Notes under the pieces: generated by a model
What the model saw: only the letters and a program-made list of their open reading frames with translations
Database searches by the model: none
Told to the model about the DNA's origin: nothing
Assembly: GCF_011758645.1 (NCBI RefSeq)
Contig: NZ_JAAMOZ010000001.1
Span: 558,001 to 622,000, forward strand
DNA length: 64,000 nucleotides
Direction of reading: 5' to 3'
Origin: Brooklawnia cerclae
Lineage (GTDB): Bacteria > Actinomycetota > Actinomycetes > Propionibacteriales > Propionibacteriaceae
In this document: piece by piece, positions 6,076 through 15,081 of the stretch
Numbering within the stretch: the stretch's first letter is position 1
Layout of the letters: the number at the start of each line of letters is the position of its first letter
Made by a program: the position numbers and the translations under genes

Positions 6076-6954
6076 ATGTCCATCTGGCTGGGTAAGCAGT
6101 CGCGCATCGTCGTCCAGGGAATGACCGGGTCGGAGGGACGCAAGCACACGCAGAGAATGCTCGACTCGGGAACAGCGGTGGTGGCGGGCGTGACCCCCGG
6201 CAAGGGTGGTCAGTCGGTGGCGTTCGAGGGCGTCGAATTGCCGGTGTTCGACACGGTGGCCGAGGCGAGCGCCGCGACGGGCGCGGACACCTCGGTCGTC
6301 TTCGTGCCCCCGCCGTTCGCGGGAGCCGCCGTGACCGAGGCGGTGAGCGCCGCGCTCGACATGGTGGTCTGCATCACCGAGGGCATCCCGGTGGCCGACT
6401 CGGCGCGCTTCGTCAACCAGGCACTGGACGCGGGCGTGCGGCTGATCGGCCCGAACTGCCCGGGGATCATCTCGCCGGGGGAGTCGAACGCGGGCATCAT
6501 CCCCGCGTCCATCACCGGGCCCGGGCCGATCGGGCTGGTCAGCAAGTCGGGGACGCTCACGTACCAGATGATGTACGAACTGCGCGACCTCGGCTTCTCG
6601 ACGGCCATCGGCATCGGCGGCGACCCGATCGTGGGCACGACCCACATCGACGCGCTCCAGGCGTTCCAGGACGATCCCGCGACCGAGGCGATCGTGCTGA
6701 TCGGGGAGATCGGCGGAGACGCCGAGGAGCGCGCCGCGGCCTTCATCGCGGAGCATGTGACCAAGCCCGTGGTCGCTTACGTGGCCGGTTTCACCGCGCC
6801 CGAAGGACGGACGATGGGCCACGCCGGCGCGATCGTCTCGGGCTCTTCCGGCACCGCCGAGGCGAAGAAACGTGCCTTCGAGGCGGTCGGTGTCACCGTG
6901 GGACGCACACCGAGCGGTACCGCCGATCTCATGCGGGAGCTGTTGAAGGGCTGA
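6076..6954 (+). CDS. sucD: succinyl-CoA ligase alpha subunit
   Basis: This is the alpha chain of succinyl-CoA synthetase (292 aa), which carries the phosphohistidine intermediate: His249 in [11 protein letters not shown]. The CoA-binding Rossmann domain ([18 protein letters not shown]) and the [12 protein letters not shown] segment at ~125-136 are intact. It lies one base after sucC and is surely co-transcribed, with a GAGGAGG ribosome-binding site at the end of sucC. Its last 26 bp overlap the convergent Hyi-type isomerase gene, which marks the junction with the catabolic island. Confidence 0.97.
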
Positions 6955-7789
6955 GGGACCCGGACAGCCGGGGAATCCTCGATCGCTCGGGGAACGGGAG
7001 CCAGGCGAATGGGTCCTCGACCTGGCTGGGATCGTATTCCAGGCCGACGAATCCTTCGTATCCGAGTTCTGCCAACTCGCCTAGCACATTGCCGAAGTTG
7101 ATCTCGCCGGTGCCGGGTGCTGACCGCGTCGGCACATCGGCCAGTTGGACGTGCCCGATGCGTGGCAGGGACTGTCTCAGCGTGCCGATGAGGTTCCCCT
7201 CAGAACACTGTGCGTGGAAGAGGTCGTACTGCAGGGCGACGCCCGCGCGGTCGAGTTCGTCCAGGATGGCCAGCACATCGCTCGTCCGCTGGCACAGGTA
7301 GTGCGGGTGGGTGAGGTGGTTCAGCGGCTCGATGAGCAGAGTCACCCCGCGATCGGTTGCCCTGGGCGCGGCCCAGTCAAGATTCTCCAGGACGCAGTCC
7401 TGAGCCTCCGCGCGCGTCCGTCCGCGGGGGACGTCCCCTGTGAGCACATTGACGCGCCGGCACGACAAGTCCGTCGCCAGGTCGAGCGCCCTGTCCAAGG
7501 CCTCACGCCAGGTCTCTCGGCGCGCCGGGTCGCAGGCGAAGCCCCGGTCGCCTGCTGCGTAGTCGCCTTCGAACATGTTGACCAGGGCGACATCGACTCC
7601 CGATCGTCGTTGGGCTCGCCGGAGCTCTTCGGCGGGCTCGCCGGGCCAGAACATCTCGACCGCTCGGAAGCCGAGTTGTCTGGCTCGGTCGAACCTTGCG
7701 GGCACCGGTACGTCCGTACAGAACCATCCGATGCTCAGTGAGTAGCGGAAGTGGCGCTTTTCGAGCGCTCTCGTCGGCGTCATCGTCAC
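6929..7789 (-). CDS. Hyi/OtnI-type sugar isomerase (TIM barrel)
   Basis: This 286-aa protein of the hydroxypyruvate isomerase/2-oxo-tetronate isomerase branch of the xylose-isomerase-like TIM barrels catalyses metal-dependent aldose-ketose or keto-acid isomerisation. The expected metal and acid-base residues are visible: Glu154 (LIEPLNH), Asp189 and His192 (YDLFHAQ), Gln215 (HVQLAD), Glu229 (GTGEINF) and Glu251 (GLEYDP). The GTG at 7789 is chosen because AGGAGG lies exactly 8 bases upstream; the ATG 6 bases later is poorly spaced. It is divergent from the hydrolase-led operon across a shared promoter region. Family members process tetronate-derived intermediates or hydroxypyruvate. The exact substrate here is unknown, and glyoxylate/hydroxypyruvate metabolism is an alternative. 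Confidence 0.85.
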
Positions 7790-7826
7790 GGGGATCGCCT
7801 CCTGGATGCTGTGGGTGACGCAGTCG

Positions 7827-7855
7827 TTGACATCACCGAAACCTCACCATACACT
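7827..7855 (+). promoter_or_regulatory. consensus sigma70-type promoter of the catabolic operon
   Basis: TTGACA at 7827-7832 and TACACT at 7850-7855 are separated by exactly 17 bases, a near-perfect housekeeping promoter and the best one in the window. Transcription would start near 7862, inside the adjacent palindrome, and run into the hydrolase gene at 7923. Confidence 0.8.
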
Positions 7856-7860
7856 GGATG

Positions 7861-7884
7861 TTGGATGTTGTAGCCAATATCCAA
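7861..7884. promoter_or_regulatory. palindromic operator overlapping +1
   Basis: This is a 24-bp inverted repeat with 10-base arms TTGGATGTTG and CAATATCCAA around TAGC, with 9 of 10 positions pairing. A further direct copy of TGGATG (7855-7860) abuts it on the left. It lies immediately downstream of the -10 hexamer, so a bound protein would block initiation. The obvious candidate ligand is the GntR protein encoded at the end of the cluster, an inference from synteny. Confidence 0.65.
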
Positions 7885-7922
7885 TCTGCAAAGCCGCAGG
7901 TCACCAACCAAGGAGGAGACGC

Positions 7923-8768
7923 ATGGCTGCGTCAACGCTCACGATCCGGCCGCTGAACACGGGGTATATCCCGACTGTGCCGCTTCAGTACCATTTCCAC
8001 TTCTCGGCGGGTCCGTATCTGAAGGACGTCCCCAACGAGAAGATCCCGCTCCCCTGTTTCACCTTCCTCGTCGAGGGCGGCGACCAGCCCGTCCTGGTGG
8101 ACACGGGCATGGCGTGGACCGAGAGGGCCTCGGGGGTGCACCATCCTGGTTCATGGCAGGACGCCGGTCAGGACATCGAAAGCCAACTGAAGGCGTGCGG
8201 GTACTCGTGTGAGGACATCGGGACCGTGATCTTCACCCACCTCCACTGGGATCACACCTACTACGCCCAGAAGTTCGCGAACTCACGTGTGATCTGTCAT
8301 CGCCGGGAACTCGACTTCGCCCTGCATCCGATTCCCCTCTACTACAAGTCGTACGAAGATCCGGTCCTGGGGCTGGAGGCGCCTTTCAAGGGTGTCGAAC
8401 TGGAGCCGATCGAGGGGGAGACGGAGATCGTCCCCGGGATCCGTGCGTTCGAGACGTTCGGGCACTCACCGGGCCACATCTCGGTCGAGATCGACTGCGC
8501 GGACGGGGACAGCTACATCTGTGCGGGAGACTCGATGTTCTCACTGCGCAACCTTGACCCGATCCCGGAACTCCATTACGACGTGACCCCGCCCGGGCGG
8601 TTCTACAACATCGTCGAGTGCTGGCGGAGCGTGGAGCTCCAGAAGGAACGGGCGAAGTCGCCGAGCCATCTGCTGCTCGCGCACGACGCGACGCTGCCCG
8701 ATCGTGTGGCCGAAAATCCGATCATCGGCGGAGCCAGCGATGCGGTCGACAGCAGCGGTACTCGGTAG
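7923..8768 (+). CDS. metallo-beta-lactamase-fold hydrolase (AHL-lactonase-like)
   Basis: This 281-aa zinc hydrolase has a complete metal site: HLHWDH (the HxHxDH motif), then His in GHSPGHIS, Asp in CAGDSMF and His in LLLAHDAT. The overall arrangement resembles N-acyl-homoserine lactonases (AiiA/AttM group), which open five-membered lactone rings. The start at 7923 follows an AGGAGGAG ribosome-binding site; an earlier ATG at 7806 would lie upstream of the promoter's start point. As first gene of a sugar-acid-like operon, the most economical guess is hydrolysis of a sugar lactone rather than quorum quenching. Its 3' end overlaps the next gene by 29 bp, implying translational coupling. Confidence 0.85.
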   Translation: MAASTLTIRPLNTGYIPTVPLQYHFHFSAGPYLKDVPNEKIPLPCFTFLVEGGDQPVLVDTGMAWTERASGVHHPGSWQDAGQDIESQLKACGYSCEDIGTVIFTHLHWDHTYYAQKFANSRVICHRRELDFALHPIPLYYKSYEDPVLGLEAPFKGVELEPIEGETEIVPGIRAFETFGHSPGHISVEIDCADGDSYICAGDSMFSLRNLDPIPELHYDVTPPGRFYNIVECWRSVELQKERAKSPSHLLLAHDATLPDRVAENPIIGGASDAVDSSGTR

Positions 8769-10002
8769 CTGGGACACCAAACGGGACGAGATGCGGTACA
8801 TGCGGTCCCGTTTGGAGAACGCAGGGATAGCAGTCGTCCTCGTCGACGTGTCGACGGTTGTGACCGAGGCATTCGACGACGCGAACGGGTATTCGGCGCA
8901 GGACATCCGGCGGCCTCTGGAGAACGAGTGGCGAGAACTCGCCGGAGCCGGTAGAGGGGCGAAGATCGACTTCATGGCCAGGGCGACCCGCGACTTCGTC
9001 GTGCTGTTGCAGGAGCGCGGGCAGATCGACGGCGTGATCAGTGCCGGCGGGCTGCAGAACACGACACTGGCCACCGCCGCGATGAAAGCCCTGCCCATCG
9101 GGTTCCCCAAGGTGATGGCCACCACGGTCGCCACAGGCAGGCGCTCGTTCATGTCGGTCGTGGGTGATCGCGACGTGGTCGTGGTGCCGGCCCTGGCAGA
9201 CATGGCCGGGCTCAACTTCGCCACCAGATCGACCCTCAACACTGCCTGCGACTGTCTCATAGGCCTGATGTCGAACAGGACGGAACTCCAGCGCCCCGAC
9301 CGCCCCGTCGTCGGCCTGACCCTGATGGGCGTGACCAATGCCGGAGCCGCCGGGGCGATACACCAGTTGGAACGGCACGGTTTCGAGGCTGTCGGGTTCC
9401 ACGCGACAGGCGCAGGCGGCGGCGTCCTCGAAGAGTTCGTGCGGACCGGGCTCGTCGACGCGGTGCTCGACATGAACCTGCACGAGATCGTCAACGAGTG
9501 TTTTCAGGGCGGCTACTCGTTCGGTGTGCGCAACCGGCTGTCCGCCGCGATTGAACGAGGCATCCCTTTGGTGGTGACGCCGGGAGGCCTCGATTTCGTG
9601 GACTACATGGTCAACGAGTTCGAACCGGGCCTGGCGGGGCGCAAATACGTCCTGCACAACGGGACGCTTGCCCACATCAAGCTGACGGTTGACGAGGCGG
9701 CGATGGTCGGTGGGGTCGTGGGTGAGCGGCTGCGTGGGGCGAGGGTGCCGGTTCGCCTCGTGGTTCCGACAGCGGGGCTGCGAGCCGACACGGACCCCGG
9801 AGAGCCGATGCATGATCCGCCGGTGGACGAGGCCCTCGTCCAGGCCATCGTCGAGCACGCGGGCGATGGCGTGGAGGTCGAAAGGGTCGCCATGAATCTC
9901 AACACCGAGGAGTTCGGTGCCCTGGTCGCCGATCGCATGATCGAGGCGTTCGACCATGCCGGTGCCCGTCCCTCGACACGGCAGGAGGTGGGATCGTTGT
10001 GA
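8740..10002 (+). CDS. Tm-1-like ATP-binding protein (UPF0261)
   Basis: This 420-aa member of the UPF0261/Tm-1-like family is named after the tomato Tm-1 resistance protein, whose N-terminal domain binds ATP. The N-terminus has a Rossmann-like start (AAVLGSWDTKRDEM) and a glycine-rich GVISAGGLQNTTLAT segment. The second half starts VVGLTLMGVTNAGAAGAI and continues with FHATGAGGGVLEEFV. No enzymatic activity is established for bacterial members that I can name. The start at 8740 is favoured by family N-terminus and a GGCGGAG-like site; it gives a 29-bp overlap with the hydrolase. It overlaps the class II aldolase by GTGA, a position where tetronate clusters usually carry a kinase. Confidence 0.85.
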   Translation: MRSTAAVLGSWDTKRDEMRYMRSRLENAGIAVVLVDVSTVVTEAFDDANGYSAQDIRRPLENEWRELAGAGRGAKIDFMARATRDFVVLLQERGQIDGVISAGGLQNTTLATAAMKALPIGFPKVMATTVATGRRSFMSVVGDRDVVVVPALADMAGLNFATRSTLNTACDCLIGLMSNRTELQRPDRPVVGLTLMGVTNAGAAGAIHQLERHGFEAVGFHATGAGGGVLEEFVRTGLVDAVLDMNLHEIVNECFQGGYSFGVRNRLSAAIERGIPLVVTPGGLDFVDYMVNEFEPGLAGRKYVLHNGTLAHIKLTVDEAAMVGGVVGERLRGARVPVRLVVPTAGLRADTDPGEPMHDPPVDEALVQAIVEHAGDGVEVERVAMNLNTEEFGALVADRMIEAFDHAGARPSTRQEVGSL

Positions 10003-10595
10003 CCGACGTCGACGAACTTCGCGAGCAGTTGGCGGTTGCGTCCGGGCGCGCCTATACACGCGGCATCCAGACGGGCAATGGAGGCAACGTGAGCGCCCGT
10101 CTACCCGATGGCCGGTCGATGCTGGTGACAGCCAGCGGTGGTTCCTTCGGCGACTGCCGACCGGAATCCTTCTTGACCACCGATCTCGACGGCACGGTCA
10201 GGGAAGGGAAGGGGAAGCCGACTCGCGAGACCTACATGCACGGCCACATCTATCAGTGCAGGCCGGACGTGTCGGCCGTCGTCCACGTGCATGCGCCGTA
10301 TGCGATCGCCATGGCGCACGCAGTTTCGCAGTTGCCGCTCGTGACTTGGCACTCCCGTCTCAAGATCCCCGGGAGCATCCCGGTGCTCGACGTGCAGTCT
10401 CCGATGGTCCGGCCCTCGGACTGGCCGATCGTGGAACGATGTCTGCTCGCCGAGCCGCACGTCGACGCGTTCATCCTGCGTGACCACGGCATCGTCGCCA
10501 TGGCTCAGAGCCCGGACAACGCGGAGCACCTGGCCGAACTCGTCGAAGAGACGGCACAGATCGCATTCCTGACCCACATGGCGGGCAGGGGCTAG
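9999..10595 (+). CDS. class II aldolase/adducin-family protein (OtnC-like)
   Basis: This 198-aa zinc-dependent aldolase of the FucA/AraD/OtnC superfamily shows the catalytic and metal residues: Glu77 (TRETYMHGH), His96 and His98 (VVHVHAPYA) and His163 (RDHGIVAM). Family members cleave or decarboxylate phosphorylated sugar acids and deoxy sugars to triose phosphate plus an aldehyde or CO2; OtnC is the 3-oxo-tetronate-4-phosphate decarboxylase. Translation starts at a GTG overlapping the Tm-1-like stop (GTGA), so the two proteins are probably made in equal amounts. The exact substrate is not readable, and an epimerase role, as in AraD, is also possible. Confidence 0.88.
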   Translation: MTDVDELREQLAVASGRAYTRGIQTGNGGNVSARLPDGRSMLVTASGGSFGDCRPESFLTTDLDGTVREGKGKPTRETYMHGHIYQCRPDVSAVVHVHAPYAIAMAHAVSQLPLVTWHSRLKIPGSIPVLDVQSPMVRPSDWPIVERCLLAEPHVDAFILRDHGIVAMAQSPDNAEHLAELVEETAQIAFLTHMAGRG

Positions 10596-10699
10596 ACCCC
10601 GGTCAGCACACTCACACACCGGCGCGATCATCGCGTCCCTCGGCTCCCATGCGCATCGTCGCGCAGGGTAACCGTTCTTCCTAGCGATGGAGATGACCC

Positions 10700-12034
10700 A
10701 TGTCTTCCACAACCAGCATGTCCTCCACGGTCCGAACCTCTGCCGGGCCGACCCGATATCGAGTAGGGATTCTCGCACTACTTTTCTTGGCCACCTTCAC
10801 CAATTACCTGGACAGGGCCACACTCGCTGTGGTCGGCCCGACGCTCCAGGACGAGTTCGGGATGACCGACGTCCAGTACGGCTGGCTGTCATCCGCTTTC
10901 GTCTGGGGGATCGTGGCTGTCATCCTCGTCTTCGGGGCTCTTATGCAGCGGTTCGGCGAGCGTCTGATCGGCGGAATCGGCTTGGTCGGTTTCTCGCTGG
11001 CGACGCTGCTCAGCGGTACGACGGCGGGCTTCTGGCCGCTTCTCGGCTGCCGGCTGGGGCTGGGCGTCTTCGAGGCCCCGACTTTTCCCATGAACGCGAC
11101 CCTGGTACGTCGGTGGTTCCCTCGATCCGAACGAGGGAAGGCCGTGTCCACCTATCAGTTCGGCGCCACAGCCGGGACCGCCTTCGGGATACCCATCATC
11201 GGGCTCATCGCCCACCAGTGGGGATGGCGCGCGGGGTTCTTCGCGGCGGGAGCGTTCGGGCTCGTCATCGCGCTGCTGTGGTTCAGATTCGTTCACAACT
11301 CGCCTGGGTCGACCCCGCGCGTGAACAGTGCTGAACGCGCTCTCATCGACGCCGACAGGGAGCCCGAACAGGCGCGTCGGCGTATCACACGCGAAGACCT
11401 GCGCTACGTGTTGACTGATCGCCGCCTGCTGTCACTGTACGTGATCACCGGCGCGACCTCGACGGCGTTCTTCTTCTTCATGACCTGGCTGCCGAAGTAC
11501 ATGAGGGACAGCATGGGCATCGACGTCACCGGCGGTCTGTCGAGCGGAATGAAAGGCACGATCCCCTACATCTTCGCTCTGGCCGGCATCGTCTTCGGGG
11601 GGTGGCTCAGCGATCACCTCATCAAGCGCGGAATCCCGGCCAAGGTCGCACGCAAGTGGCCGATCAGCATCGGCCTGATCGGGACGAGCGTCGTGTTCCT
11701 CATGCCGCTCGCGCACAGCCAGACGGCGGGCCTGACAGTCATCTCGGTTGCGTACTTCTCTGCGTCGATGGCCAACTGCGCATGGGTGCTGCCCGCGGAG
11801 GTGTCGCGCAAGGAGGTATCGGCATTGGCCAACAGCACCTACGGGTTCTTCACCAACTTGTTCGGAGCTCTGTCGCCGGTGGTGGCCGGGTACCTGGTGT
11901 CGTCGAGCGGCTACAACGCCATGCTGGTATACATCGGTGCATGGGCCGTGGTCGGTCTCGCGGCGATCCTGTTCCTGCTGGACGATGTCGCCCCGACCCC
12001 CCACGGTGAGGACCTGGCCGACGCTCGAGCGTGA
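10700..12034 (+). CDS. MFS transporter, anion:cation symporter (ACS) type
   Basis: This 444-aa, twelve-segment major facilitator belongs to the ACS branch that includes hexuronate, galactonate and glucarate carriers. The N-terminal signature RVGILALLFLATFTNYLDR and the loop following WGWRAGFF are typical. Proton-coupled import of an organic anion such as a sugar acid is therefore the best prediction. It follows the aldolase after 104 bases without an obvious promoter, with a GGAG ribosome-binding site about 9 bases before ATG. Its presence supports a sugar-acid substrate for the surrounding enzymes. It could also import the lactone-derived product of the first enzyme. Confidence 0.9.
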   Translation: MSSTTSMSSTVRTSAGPTRYRVGILALLFLATFTNYLDRATLAVVGPTLQDEFGMTDVQYGWLSSAFVWGIVAVILVFGALMQRFGERLIGGIGLVGFSLATLLSGTTAGFWPLLGCRLGLGVFEAPTFPMNATLVRRWFPRSERGKAVSTYQFGATAGTAFGIPIIGLIAHQWGWRAGFFAAGAFGLVIALLWFRFVHNSPGSTPRVNSAERALIDADREPEQARRRITREDLRYVLTDRRLLSLYVITGATSTAFFFFMTWLPKYMRDSMGIDVTGGLSSGMKGTIPYIFALAGIVFGGWLSDHLIKRGIPAKVARKWPISIGLIGTSVVFLMPLAHSQTAGLTVISVAYFSASMANCAWVLPAEVSRKEVSALANSTYGFFTNLFGALSPVVAGYLVSSSGYNAMLVYIGAWAVVGLAAILFLLDDVAPTPHGEDLADARA

Positions 12035-12108
12035 GCGGTCAGGTTCGGCGAGGGTCTTTAGCGCCAAGGACATGTCGAGCACTGCCAACGACGAAGGGAA
12101 TCGACTTC

Positions 12109-12858
12109 ATGTATTGGGTTGGAACCAGCTGGAAGATGAACGGCGACGCAGCATCGGCCCGCGAGTACTGCGCGGCCCTGCTCGCGGCTGACCGGTCAGC
12201 CTGGGAGGGGTTGCAGCCGTTCGTGATCCCGCCCGCGACCCTCATATCGGCCGTGCGGGCAGCGCTGGGTCCTGCGGGCGTTCTGGTCGGTGCCCAGAAC
12301 GCGCATTGGGAGGACAAGGGCGCCTGGACCGGTGAACTGTCGGTTCCCCAGGTGGCCGACGCCGGAGCGCAGATCGTGGAGATCGGTCATTCCGAGCGCC
12401 GCGAGTACTTCAACGAGACCGACGAGACGGTCAACCTGAAGGTCAAGGCCATACTGGCCCACGACCTGAGGCCCCTGGTGTGTGTGGGGGAGGATCGTAG
12501 CGTCTTCGAGGCGGGCGGATCGGTCGAGCACGTCTGCGCCCAGGTGGATGCCGCCCTGCGCGGAGTCGACGACACGTCGACGATCCTGCTCGCCTACGAA
12601 CCCATCTGGGCCATCGGCGAAAAGGGGCGCGAGCCCATGCCGGGCGATCTCGAGAAGGTCTTCGACGCGTTGCAGGGCCGCTACGGCGATCGGGTGGAAG
12701 CAACGTTGTACGGGGGATCGGTGAACCCCGGGAACGCCGCTCGGCTGCTGGGGATCCCCGGGGTGTCGGGCCTGTTCGTGGGACGCTCCGCCTGGTCGGG
12801 TGAGGGATACGCCGAGATCCTCCGCCTGGCGGGTGGCGCGGTCGGCGCGTTCGCCTGA
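12109..12858 (+). CDS. triose-phosphate isomerase homologue, LerI/EryH (L-erythrulose-1-phosphate isomerase) type
   Basis: This 249-aa TIM-barrel isomerase keeps Lys9 (WKMN), His94 (IGHSERREYF) and Glu164 (AYEPIWAIGE). The N-terminus YWVGTSWKMN and the segment GAQNAHWEDKGAWTGELS are typical of the EryH/LerI branch that isomerises L-erythrulose 1-phosphate, rather than of glycolytic TpiA. The ATG at 12109 is preceded by GAAGGGA about 9 bases away. The assignment is by recalled sequence pattern, not alignment. A second genuine TpiA elsewhere in the genome would support it. In the cluster it would channel a tetrulose or triose phosphate made by the aldolase into central metabolism. Confidence 0.8.
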   Translation: MYWVGTSWKMNGDAASAREYCAALLAADRSAWEGLQPFVIPPATLISAVRAALGPAGVLVGAQNAHWEDKGAWTGELSVPQVADAGAQIVEIGHSERREYFNETDETVNLKVKAILAHDLRPLVCVGEDRSVFEAGGSVEHVCAQVDAALRGVDDTSTILLAYEPIWAIGEKGREPMPGDLEKVFDALQGRYGDRVEATLYGGSVNPGNAARLLGIPGVSGLFVGRSAWSGEGYAEILRLAGGAVGAFA

Positions 12859-12879
12859 CCCACAGCGGGGTGGATCGGT

Positions 12880-12885
12880 CATACT
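12880..12885 (+). promoter_or_regulatory. -10 element of the GntR gene
   Basis: The hexamer CATACT ends 6 bases before the GTG start at 12892, the same geometry as many other genes in the window. It implies a separate leaderless transcript for the regulator. Confidence 0.45.
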
Positions 12886-12891
12886 GAAGAG

Positions 12892-13587
12892 GTGGCTGTG
12901 GCTAAGGTGAAGCGCCAGACGATGGCGGATCAGATCAGTGATGCACTGATGGACGCCATCATGGACGGCACTATCCGCATGGGCGACAAGCTCCGCACGC
13001 AGGACCTGGCCGATCAGTTCGGCGTCAGCCGGATGCCCGTGCGCGAGGCGCTGATCAACCTGCAGGTCAGTGGCCTGGTGGATGCGACCCCCTACAGCGG
13101 TTACCGGGTCGTCTCGCTGGATCCGGAGCGGATACGCGAGGGGTACATCATCCGCCAGGCCCTGGAGCCGATCGTGGCCAGGACGGCTTGTGAACGCATC
13201 ACCGATGAGGGTGTGGCCGCCGTCGAGGACAAGCTCGGCGAGCTGGAGGCCGCAACTCTCGACGCATCTCCCAGCCCGAAGGAGATCTATCTGTGCAACC
13301 GTGAATTCCATTTCACGTGGTATGAGGCTGCGGGGATGCCGGTGGTGGTCGAGGCGATCCGCGCCGCGTGGGACAAGCTCGCTGTCTACAAACTGATCTA
13401 CGGACGCAAGTATCTTCGCGATCGTGAGGCGGGGGTCCGCATGGTGCAGGAGCACCGAGCTTATGTCGATGCTCTGCGAACCCGCGACGCCGAAGGAGTC
13501 GCTCGCCAACTGGAGCAGAGCATCGCCATGCACGAGGTCGACGTGCCCGACGAGTTCCGGCTCGACGAGTCCGCTGTGAGCGCCTGA
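12892..13587 (+). CDS. GntR-family regulator, FadR/FCD subfamily
   Basis: This 231-aa transcription factor closes the catabolic cluster. The N-terminal winged helix spans ~8-70 (QISDALMDAIMDGTIRMGDK, TQDLADQFGVSRMPVREALI, GLVDATPYSGYRV). The C-terminal all-helical FCD ligand domain carries His residues typical of the metal/ligand site (NREFHFTWYEAAG and EHRAYVDAL). FCD regulators usually sense sugar acids or other carboxylates and act as repressors released by substrate. The likely target is the palindrome at 7861-7884. Translation begins at GTG with no Shine-Dalgarno but with a -10-like hexamer 6 bases upstream. Confidence 0.9.
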   Translation: MAVAKVKRQTMADQISDALMDAIMDGTIRMGDKLRTQDLADQFGVSRMPVREALINLQVSGLVDATPYSGYRVVSLDPERIREGYIIRQALEPIVARTACERITDEGVAAVEDKLGELEAATLDASPSPKEIYLCNREFHFTWYEAAGMPVVVEAIRAAWDKLAVYKLIYGRKYLRDREAGVRMVQEHRAYVDALRTRDAEGVARQLEQSIAMHEVDVPDEFRLDESAVSA

Positions 13588-13628
13588 GACACGAGCCGGT
13601 CGTCCGCGACGCCTGGTGCTCATTCGGT

Positions 13629-13634
13629 TAGGGT
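13629..13634 (+). promoter_or_regulatory. -10 element upstream of DUF6350 gene
   Basis: TAGGGT lies 31 bases before the ATG at 13666. With an expected start near 13641 it gives a leader of about 25 bases carrying the GGAGGAG ribosome-binding site. It marks resumption of the conserved chromosome after the island. Confidence 0.5.
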
Positions 13635-13665
13635 CGGGGTTGCAACCGATGAGCGGAGGAGACCG

Positions 13666-15081
13666 ATGGCCGTGCTGGGCGGGCGGCGCCCATGGCGTCG
13701 TGGCAGGTCCGAGCCCAGCGTGCGTGTCCGGGAGTTGGCGGCCGCGAGCCCGGAGCGGCCCACGTGGCAGGCCCCCTGGCCGCTGGTGACGATCGCGGCG
13801 GCGCTCATCACGGCGATGGTCGGTTGGCTCCTGATGGTCGGCCTGTGCCTGCTCGGCTGGATCGTGGTTCCCGAGCTCGGCGGCGGAGAGGTCTTCCGCA
13901 TGGCCGCACAGGGCTGGCTTCTCGCACACGGGATCCCGATCTCGCTCCCGGGAGCCTGGCTGTCGATCCCACCGCTCGGGCTGACCCTCATCGCTATCGT
14001 CACGGGTCTGGGTGGATGCCGGTTCGCCGTCCTGCACGGGCACGCCCCTTCCGAGCCGGACGAAAGGCCGCGACGTGCGGTGCGGATGGGGTGCCTGTTC
14101 GCCCTCGCCTATGTGATCGCTCTGCTGGGAGTGCGGGCCTGGGTGGGGGCATCGGCCCCGTCGACCACGTTGGCACCGGTCGTGGTCATCGTCCTGTTCC
14201 TGGGCATCGGGGGCTGCGCGAGGTCGCTGCACTGGGACCCGTTCAGTCGTCTGGCCGAGCGCTGGGCCTGGACGCGGGCCATCGTGCCGGCCTTGGTGGC
14301 CGGCCTGTGCGTGATGATCGTCGCGGGTGCCCTGGTGTTGGCCGTCTCGCTCGTGTCGGGTCGCACCCGCATCGAGACCATCCACGACTCATTGTCGGCC
14401 GGGGTGATCGGCGGAGTGATGCTCATCCTCGTCCAGCTGGCGTGGCTGCCGAACTACATTCTGTGGTGCGGATCGTGGGCGCTGGGAGCCGGCGTCCAAC
14501 TCGGTCTCGACACCGTCATCTCACCCGCCCAGAGCTACGTGGGCATGCTGCCGGCCATCCCCGTCCTGGGTGCGGTGCCCCCGGCCGGGCCGGCGCCGCG
14601 GCTGGGCATGCTCTGCCTGCTGTCGGGTGTGGTCGCAGGCGCGGTGGCTGCGTTCGTGGTCGTCACATCGCAGGTGAGGGACGCAGCCTCGCGCGGCCGG
14701 TTGCTGGGCGCCGACGTCGGGGCGATCAGTGGTGCGCTGAGCGGAATCGTGACCGGGCTGGTGTTCGTCCTGCTCCAGGTGCCGGCGTCGGGCGACCTCG
14801 GCTCTGTGCGACTCGTCGATCTCGGCGCCCGGATGGGCGCTCTGGTGATCATGGCGCCGTCCTCGATGGGGGTCGCGGGCATGGTCACCGGATGGCTGAT
14901 CGCCTGGCGTGTGGCGCGTCGGCCCGATCGTCAGGCACTCGACACCGCCGCGATGAGCGAGGCCGTCACGGGCCGGATCCTGGTCACCCGCCAGCGGGTA
15001 CAACCCGGGGGAGCCGGCGAGGAGGAGCAATCCACAAGGGTCGTCGCGGACAAGAGGCCTCCGGCCGGCGGCTCCGGGTAG
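13666..15081 (+). CDS. DUF6350-family membrane protein
   Basis: This 471-aa integral membrane protein has about ten hydrophobic segments, beginning with WPLVTIAAALITAMVGWLLM and ending near GVAGMVTGWLIAW, and basic, partly disordered ends. It matches the actinobacterial DUF6350 family conserved just upstream of purN. Function is unknown. The ATG follows GGAGGAG with 6-base spacing. Its TAG stop (15079-15081) forms the first three bases of the TAGGCT -10 hexamer of purN, so the two genes are very tightly packed. Confidence 0.85.
   Translation: MAVLGGRRPWRRGRSEPSVRVRELAAASPERPTWQAPWPLVTIAAALITAMVGWLLMVGLCLLGWIVVPELGGGEVFRMAAQGWLLAHGIPISLPGAWLSIPPLGLTLIAIVTGLGGCRFAVLHGHAPSEPDERPRRAVRMGCLFALAYVIALLGVRAWVGASAPSTTLAPVVVIVLFLGIGGCARSLHWDPFSRLAERWAWTRAIVPALVAGLCVMIVAGALVLAVSLVSGRTRIETIHDSLSAGVIGGVMLILVQLAWLPNYILWCGSWALGAGVQLGLDTVISPAQSYVGMLPAIPVLGAVPPAGPAPRLGMLCLLSGVVAGAVAAFVVVTSQVRDAASRGRLLGADVGAISGALSGIVTGLVFVLLQVPASGDLGSVRLVDLGARMGALVIMAPSSMGVAGMVTGWLIAWRVARRPDRQALDTAAMSEAVTGRILVTRQRVQPGGAGEEEQSTRVVADKRPPAGGSG

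Follow-up and report, generated by a model that had tools for sequence, protein, structure and literature searches.

A 64,000-nucleotide stretch of the Brooklawnia cerclae genome (contig NZ_JAAMOZ010000001.1, positions 558,001 to 622,000; hereafter the window) contains seven genes at 6929–13587. We read this island as a laterally acquired, GntR-controlled cassette that would convert a sugar acid or lactone to L-erythrulose 1-phosphate by the scheme outlined below, and we give this reading a probability of about one half. The Tm-1-like/UPF0261 protein encoded in the island, a relative of the virus-resistance protein Tm-1 of tomato, is the most probable kinase of the cassette, and here the odds are modestly favorable. 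Nearly all UPF0261/Tm-1-like proteins lack a known activity. The cassette offers a compact setting in which to test one, since it links the protein to a transporter, a lactonase-like enzyme, an aldolase, a regulator, a candidate operator and a likely product class. If true, the proposal would add a new kinase family to sugar-acid catabolism and hint at the original role of the Tm-1-like proteins of plants.

Pfam matches and open reading frame calls confirmed the set and order of genes described in an earlier sequence-only reading of this DNA. A Hyi/OtnI-like sugar-acid isomerase (6929–7789, minus strand; PF01261, AP_endonuc_2) is divergent from the other genes. These six, all on the plus strand, code for a lactonase-like hydrolase of the metallo-β-lactamase (MBL) fold (7923–8768; PF00753, Lactamase_B), the UPF0261 protein (8740–10002; PF06792 and PF23189), a class II aldolase/decarboxylase-like protein (9999–10595; PF00596, Aldolase_II), a major facilitator superfamily (MFS) carrier of the ACS/galactonate type (10700–12034; PF07690, MFS_1), a LerI-like homologue of triosephosphate isomerase (TPI; 12109–12858; TIM Pfam family) and a GntR/FCD regulator (12892–13587; PF00392 and PF07729). 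The coordinates also bear out the two gene overlaps reported before, 29 bp between the hydrolase stop at 8768 and the UPF0261 ATG at 8740, and 4 bp between the UPF0261 stop at 10002 and the aldolase GTG at 9999. Two starts were corrected, that of the hydrolase to the ATG at 7923 instead of 7806 and that of the TPI to the ATG at 12109 instead of 12031. As stated before, the island encodes no recognisable kinase or dehydrogenase.

The UPF0261 protein matches both domains of its family well above the gathering cut-off of 27 bits (N-terminal domain, 139.1 bits; UPF0261_C, 185.2 bits). Residues D12, K14, E17, K124, D154 and R301 are invariant among 44 sequences, and E249 and H306 are conserved in at least 90%. 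An AlphaFold2 model (pLDDT 90.9) gave good alignments only with Tm-1 (3wrw, 3wrx, 3wry) and with 9mpy; glycosyltransferase, epimerase and other folds among the 50 listed rows were set aside at TM scores of about 0.17–0.25. By sequence, the window protein matched 3wry (161 bits) and 9mpy (136 bits). A profile search of the PDB gave only weak, chance-like matches beyond the family. By its PDB title, 9mpy is Saro_1862, a UPF0261 domain protein of Novosphingobium aromaticivorans with bound acetovanillone. A report on the same species describes MarK as a single-component acetovanillone kinase (PMC13101465). Saro_1862 is probably MarK. If so, a bacterial UPF0261 kinase has already been demonstrated, the hypothesis of a UPF0261 kinase moves from bold to likely, and the new element would be the sugar-acid substrate together with the aldolase or RuBisCO-like protein (RLP) as partner. 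The earlier statement that the Tm-1 family has no assigned bacterial activity is then probably wrong. MarK and the window protein belong to the same two-domain family, but the substrate of MarK is a lignin-derived phenol instead of a sugar acid, and carboxylation is the next step. HpeHI/AcvAB was considered as a further precedent and rejected, since HpeHI is an ATP-grasp dikinase (PMC12167813).

A scan of genome contigs for relatives returned at least 554 confirmed UPF0261 proteins, of which the best 80 were compared; counts for the ten closest and the 70 more distant loci refer to these 80, with gene presence called by phmmer at E 1e-6 and some loci being short. Sequence identity to the window protein falls in a step, with ten loci at 38–44% and the other 70 at 28–36%. 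The ten closest loci (L108–L117) come from named Bacillota, except for one metagenome-assembled genome labelled "bacterium" (L109). Nine of them carry the gene order MBL-UPF0261-aldolase-GntR, which occurs in none of the 70 more distant loci. The island had been called an orphan; instead, its core recurs across phyla, and the conserved co-occurrence that was proposed as a check is indeed found. L114 has RpiB and TPI genes inserted into the cassette order, and L116 consists of UPF0261 and RLP only. Across the ten loci, RpiB, TPI and RLP are each present in five. Identities to the window proteins are 44–66% for the hydrolase, 51–60% for the aldolase, 37–44% for GntR and 36–37% for the TPI, and homologues of the hydrolase and of GntR were found in nine of the ten. 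Transport appears to be provided by a KdgT-like permease (L108, L112, L115) or an Rbs-type ABC importer (L110, L111, L113, L114, L117 and, in part, L109); these names were assigned by eye, save for proteins scanned with models. No kinase came to light in those cassettes that were inspected by eye and with family scans. The more distant loci look different: 45 contain TBST, five the class II aldolase (all named Chloroflexi or Chloroflexota), one the hydrolase, one RLP and 19 none of the tested genes, while TPI, RpiB and the window-type GntR occur in none of the 70. Among the relatives with the cassette are gut bacteria, some of which lack DUF1537, the usual sugar-acid kinase family. A single-protein scan of genome contigs returned no relative. 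Since the window protein sits on a very long branch of the UPF0261 tree, that tree was not relied on for its placement. The open-access library that was searched listed no title on cassettes of this kind.

The TPI homologue suggests what the cassette makes. Its best PDB match is the L-erythrulose-1-phosphate isomerase 11ef, with 218.4 bits against 149.3 for the best ordinary TPI, a margin of 69 bits, and its loop 6 resembles that of three cassette TPIs, unlike that of the best TPI elsewhere in the genome. The oxidative pathway for D-apiose and D-apionate (Carter et al. 2018) reportedly comprises OiaK, the RLPs OiaX and OiaT, LerI and DerI. Decarboxylation of 3-oxo-isoapionate 4-phosphate gives L-erythrulose 1-phosphate. 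In D-apiose catabolism this reaction is catalysed by an RLP (PMC6302742). The LerI-like TPI of the window, the DerI-like RpiB and RLP of its relatives and the lactonase-like protein all recall this pathway, but the cassettes are devoid of OiaK/DUF1537 and have UPF0261 in its likely place. They also contain a class II aldolase. An RpiB of the DerI family is not encoded in the island, to which that search was confined. The best model for three scanned Bacillota RLPs was of MtnW type (334, 341 and 255 bits; cut-off 409), whereas a Chloroflexi RLP matched OiaX best (230.5 bits; cut-off 700), followed by a rubisco III model (225.2 bits), both under cut-off. L-Erythrulose 1-phosphate is the likely product class. 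The earlier proposal of a tetronate, tetrose or branched sugar-acid pathway can be narrowed to this extent, as the TPI points to L-erythrulose 1-phosphate and not to a C4 tetronate route. As for the substrate, our leading guess is an apionate-related C5 acid that is either branched or of the 3-oxo type.

A candidate operator for the GntR regulator lies at 7855–7884 and is built from TTGGAT/ATCCAA half-sites, with an inverted repeat at 7861–7884. The tandem form, ATCCAAYATCCA, occurs once in the 3.79 Mb genome, at the island, and the repeat is absent from all three DUF1537 genes of this genome. With the tandem form unique to the island, no kinase elsewhere is visibly co-regulated. TTGGAT-N-ATCCAA occurs at three places in the genome; the two outside the island were set aside, as they lie inside a flippase-like and an NRAMP-like gene (by eye) and are near the control count of one. 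The motif was picked on the window first and counted in the relatives afterwards. There, ATCCAAYATCC is present in eight copies in four of the ten cassette loci (151 kb) and in none in the other 70 (1.007 Mb). Paired half-sites were found in six of the ten cassette loci and in eight of the 70 others, with nine clusters in each group; two of the cassette clusters are intragenic (L108, 9658; L110, 1284) and one is 3′ of RLP (L109). L111 and L113 have only a near-match, and L114 and L116 lack the motif. For paired sites in the ten cassette loci, TTGGAT ranked best among 60 letter permutations (14 versus at most 5). A shuffle control, which preserved dinucleotide blocks only, gave a mean of 1.54 and a largest value of 4. 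The sites lie directly 5′ of RpiB and KdgT (L108), KdgT (L112, L115) or the ABC binding protein (L110, L117), and in L108 the operator precedes both RpiB-TPI and KdgT-MBL-UPF0261-aldolase-GntR. The cassette is probably GntR-regulated, and the motif would be bound by the island's own GntR protein.

Taken as a pathway, the substrate would enter through the MFS carrier (TIGR00893, 258.9 bits; cut-off 395) or, in the relatives, through the KdgT-like permease or Rbs-type ABC importer. The MBL hydrolase, for which 4-pyridoxolactonase and AiiA are the top NCBIfam models (both under cut-off), would open a lactone ring, and the Hyi-like enzyme might isomerise a keto acid. UPF0261 would then carry out an ATP-dependent phosphorylation. 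The class II aldolase, in which the HxH motif, a third His and a Glu are retained across nine aligned members, would catalyze decarboxylation or C–C cleavage, with RLP acting alongside or instead in some lineages. Finally, the LerI-like TPI followed by RpiB would lead towards D-erythrose 4-phosphate. These enzymatic steps, and the kinase role of UPF0261 above all, are inferred. The earlier suggestion that the Tm-1-like protein supplies the ATP-dependent step gains from a core conserved across phyla, from the cassettes in which no kinase is seen and from the need of L-erythrulose-phosphate enzymes for a phosphorylated substrate; DUF1537 kinases elsewhere in the genome speak against it.

Several observations weigh against our reading. 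DUF1537 is common where the cassette occurs: ten of 14 genomes searched have it, including eight of ten Bacillota, and the window genome has three such genes, all outside the island. Right next to one cassette (L110), a PdxA-DUF1537-GntP-DeoR operon lies just 5′ (L216, 8692–13282; partly by eye), so that two sugar-acid systems adjoin. The search for kinases beyond the cassettes was for DUF1537 only. No known kinase fold is found among the 50 listed rows of the fold search, and the Tm-1 family name itself is weak evidence for a kinase, because ATP in the Tm-1 crystals sits at the interface with a viral helicase. None of the ten cassettes carries a counterpart of the window MFS carrier or Hyi-like protein, RLP (PF00016) is absent from the window genome, and the TPI clears the ordinary NCBIfam model NF000722 (307.3 bits; cut-off 293).

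Three of these points, the DUF1537 genes of the window genome, the operon beside L110 and the TPI score with an ordinary model, would fit a route resembling OtnI-OtnK-OtnC, which is a tetronate pathway. Here the Hyi/OtnI-like enzyme would isomerise the substrate, an unlinked DUF1537 protein would phosphorylate it, the aldolase would form dihydroxyacetone phosphate like OtnC, the TPI would be a plain one and UPF0261 an accessory. The island does encode OtnI-like and OtnC-like proteins: the OtnC and OtnI models are best or near best for the aldolase and the isomerase, and the isomerase matches 3ngf and 1k77 (YgbM) in the PDB. Yet the equivalog cut-offs are missed throughout, with 97.7 of 250 bits for the aldolase as 3-oxo-tetronate 4-phosphate decarboxylase, its top model, and 219.5 of 325 bits for the isomerase as 2-oxo-tetronate isomerase, behind hydroxypyruvate isomerase (247.9 of 353). 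The earlier reading would have been refuted by a co-regulated DUF1537 or other sugar-acid kinase gene elsewhere; the genome does hold three DUF1537 genes, but none is linked to the island or carries the operator repeat. One of them belongs to its own MFS-DUF1537-PdxA-DeoR operon (L004, 6718–11819; partly by eye), likely a four-carbon acid sugar pathway, and was rejected as the missing kinase for this reason; the other two have no recognised sugar-acid partner, an assignment that is weak since it was made by eye on rough gene calls. Moreover, no DUF1537 was found in four of the 14 genomes searched (those of L108, L116 and the Chloroflexi loci L125 and L128). Cassettes or aldolase-UPF0261 pairs occur among these four, which include a Blautia genome with the full cassette, although the absences are provisional as genome completeness was not given. 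Together with a TPI that is closer to LerI than to ordinary TPI, this makes the Otn-like route unlikely.

We consider it similarly improbable that UPF0261 performs some other step, such as hydrolysis, isomerisation or scaffolding of a lyase, while an unlinked FGGY, PfkB or DhaK-type kinase, families that the kinase survey did not include, phosphorylates the substrate. The absence of a kinase-like fold among the listed rows and the usual pairing of UPF0261 with TBST, a protein without assigned activity, would fit this view; the conserved cassette and operator in which no other kinase is seen, and the probable MarK precedent, argue against it. It is very improbable that the cassette serves to salvage a methylthio- or deoxy-pentose; in that case the aldolase would be an MtnB-like dehydratase or aldolase and RLP, where present, an MtnW-like enolase. 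Two of the three scanned Bacillota RLPs do score 334 and 341 bits with the MtnW model, and aldolases reach 72 and 80.5 bits with the MtnB model (cut-off 137), but all Mtn-model scores are under cut-off and the window genome has no RLP to act as enolase. The LerI-like TPI, DerI-like RpiB and KdgT/Rbs-type transport suit sugar acids better, and no other Mtn genes were noticed in the loci examined, although no aimed search for them was made.

The island extends from 6955 to 13665 by synteny and G+C content, between sucD, whose final bases overlap the Hyi stop codon, and a DUF6350-like gene that begins at 13666. In all six loci from the same genus that could be compared (L231–L236), the DUF6350-like gene follows sucD directly, although two of the six (G396, G397) give identical numbers; the eighth genus genome (G398) had no sucD match. 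G+C content is 62–67% within the island and 68–72% around it. UPF0261 is present in two of eight genus genomes, that of the window and G402; both UPF0261 proteins of the latter are 30–31% identical to the window protein, and one adjoins TBST. Because of the sucD/DUF6350-like adjacency in relatives, the rarity of UPF0261 in the genus and the lower G+C content, the whole block, Hyi gene included, looks to have been acquired laterally as a single unit. More broadly, UPF0261 turned up in 30 of 396 genomes from the phylum and in 22 of 296 from the class, each count including the window genome, and all matches besides the window's own are at most 36% identical.

The usual partner of UPF0261 is TBST (PF09370), which has no match in the window genome. 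According to PMC5028733, UPF0261 occurs in 491 of 504 TBST-bearing genomes, the two families co-evolve, and UPF0261/Tm-1-like proteins are found in bacteria, archaea, plants and fungi. A TBST homologue lies near UPF0261 in 17 of 20 larger actinobacterial loci, and annotated TBST was present in all eight plasmid regions opened, which were chosen from 342 records with a match. The cassettes share the UPF0261 half with bacterial and archaeal UPF0261-TBST pairs and with the fused Tm-1-like proteins of plants (PMC5028733), but an aldolase or RLP occupies the partner position. We tentatively extend the proposal, against the odds, to the family as a whole: in bacteria, archaea and plants, UPF0261 proteins may be small-molecule kinases with a fold class of their own that phosphorylate acidic (enolic or phenolic) hydroxyls immediately before C–C bond chemistry. 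Their downstream partners would be interchangeable, TBST in most genomes and class II aldolase or RLP in sugar-acid cassettes; plant Tm-1-like proteins would be fused two-step enzymes, and virus resistance by Tm-1 a side function.

Other arrangements add to the range of partners. RLP directly follows UPF0261 in L217, L220 (the L116 contig) and L135; the first of these (L217, 6970–9488) is the second UPF0261 of the L111 genome, away from the cassette. A zinc alcohol dehydrogenase lies 5′ of UPF0261-RLP in L135 and 5′ of aldolase-UPF0261 in five Chloroflexi loci. A Chloroflexi contig (G672:C34, on which L219 and L128 overlap) encodes a fusion of RLP to a DerI-like RpiB, together with a Hyi-like TIM barrel, an MBL protein (E 7e-61 to that of the window), an ABC importer, Gfo/Idh, alcohol dehydrogenase, class II aldolase and UPF0261 and, by eye, a SorC-type regulator and a long glycosidase-like gene; UPF0261 is the sole candidate for a kinase step seen there. 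The apparent isomerase-RLP fusion is one frame at 8262–10232 of L219, the RpiB part scoring 193.6 bits (cut-off 240) and the RLP part matching OiaX best at 230.5 bits. UPF0261 also occurs without a TBST homologue in the stretches fetched from three loci of one genus (L061, L088, L096), which cluster together in the tree. In three unrelated actinobacterial genomes (L056, 6115–8304; L086, 8691–10902; L095, 8078–10290) UPF0261 lies without TBST beside a Hyi-like TIM barrel and GntR, a further partner type. In L059 (5866–14081), a class II aldolase directly precedes UPF0261 among IolG-, IolM- and creatininase/IolN-like proteins, with KduD (above one model's cut-off) and, by eye, a LacI regulator and a tripartite tricarboxylate transporter, and this cluster may represent a cyclitol pathway.

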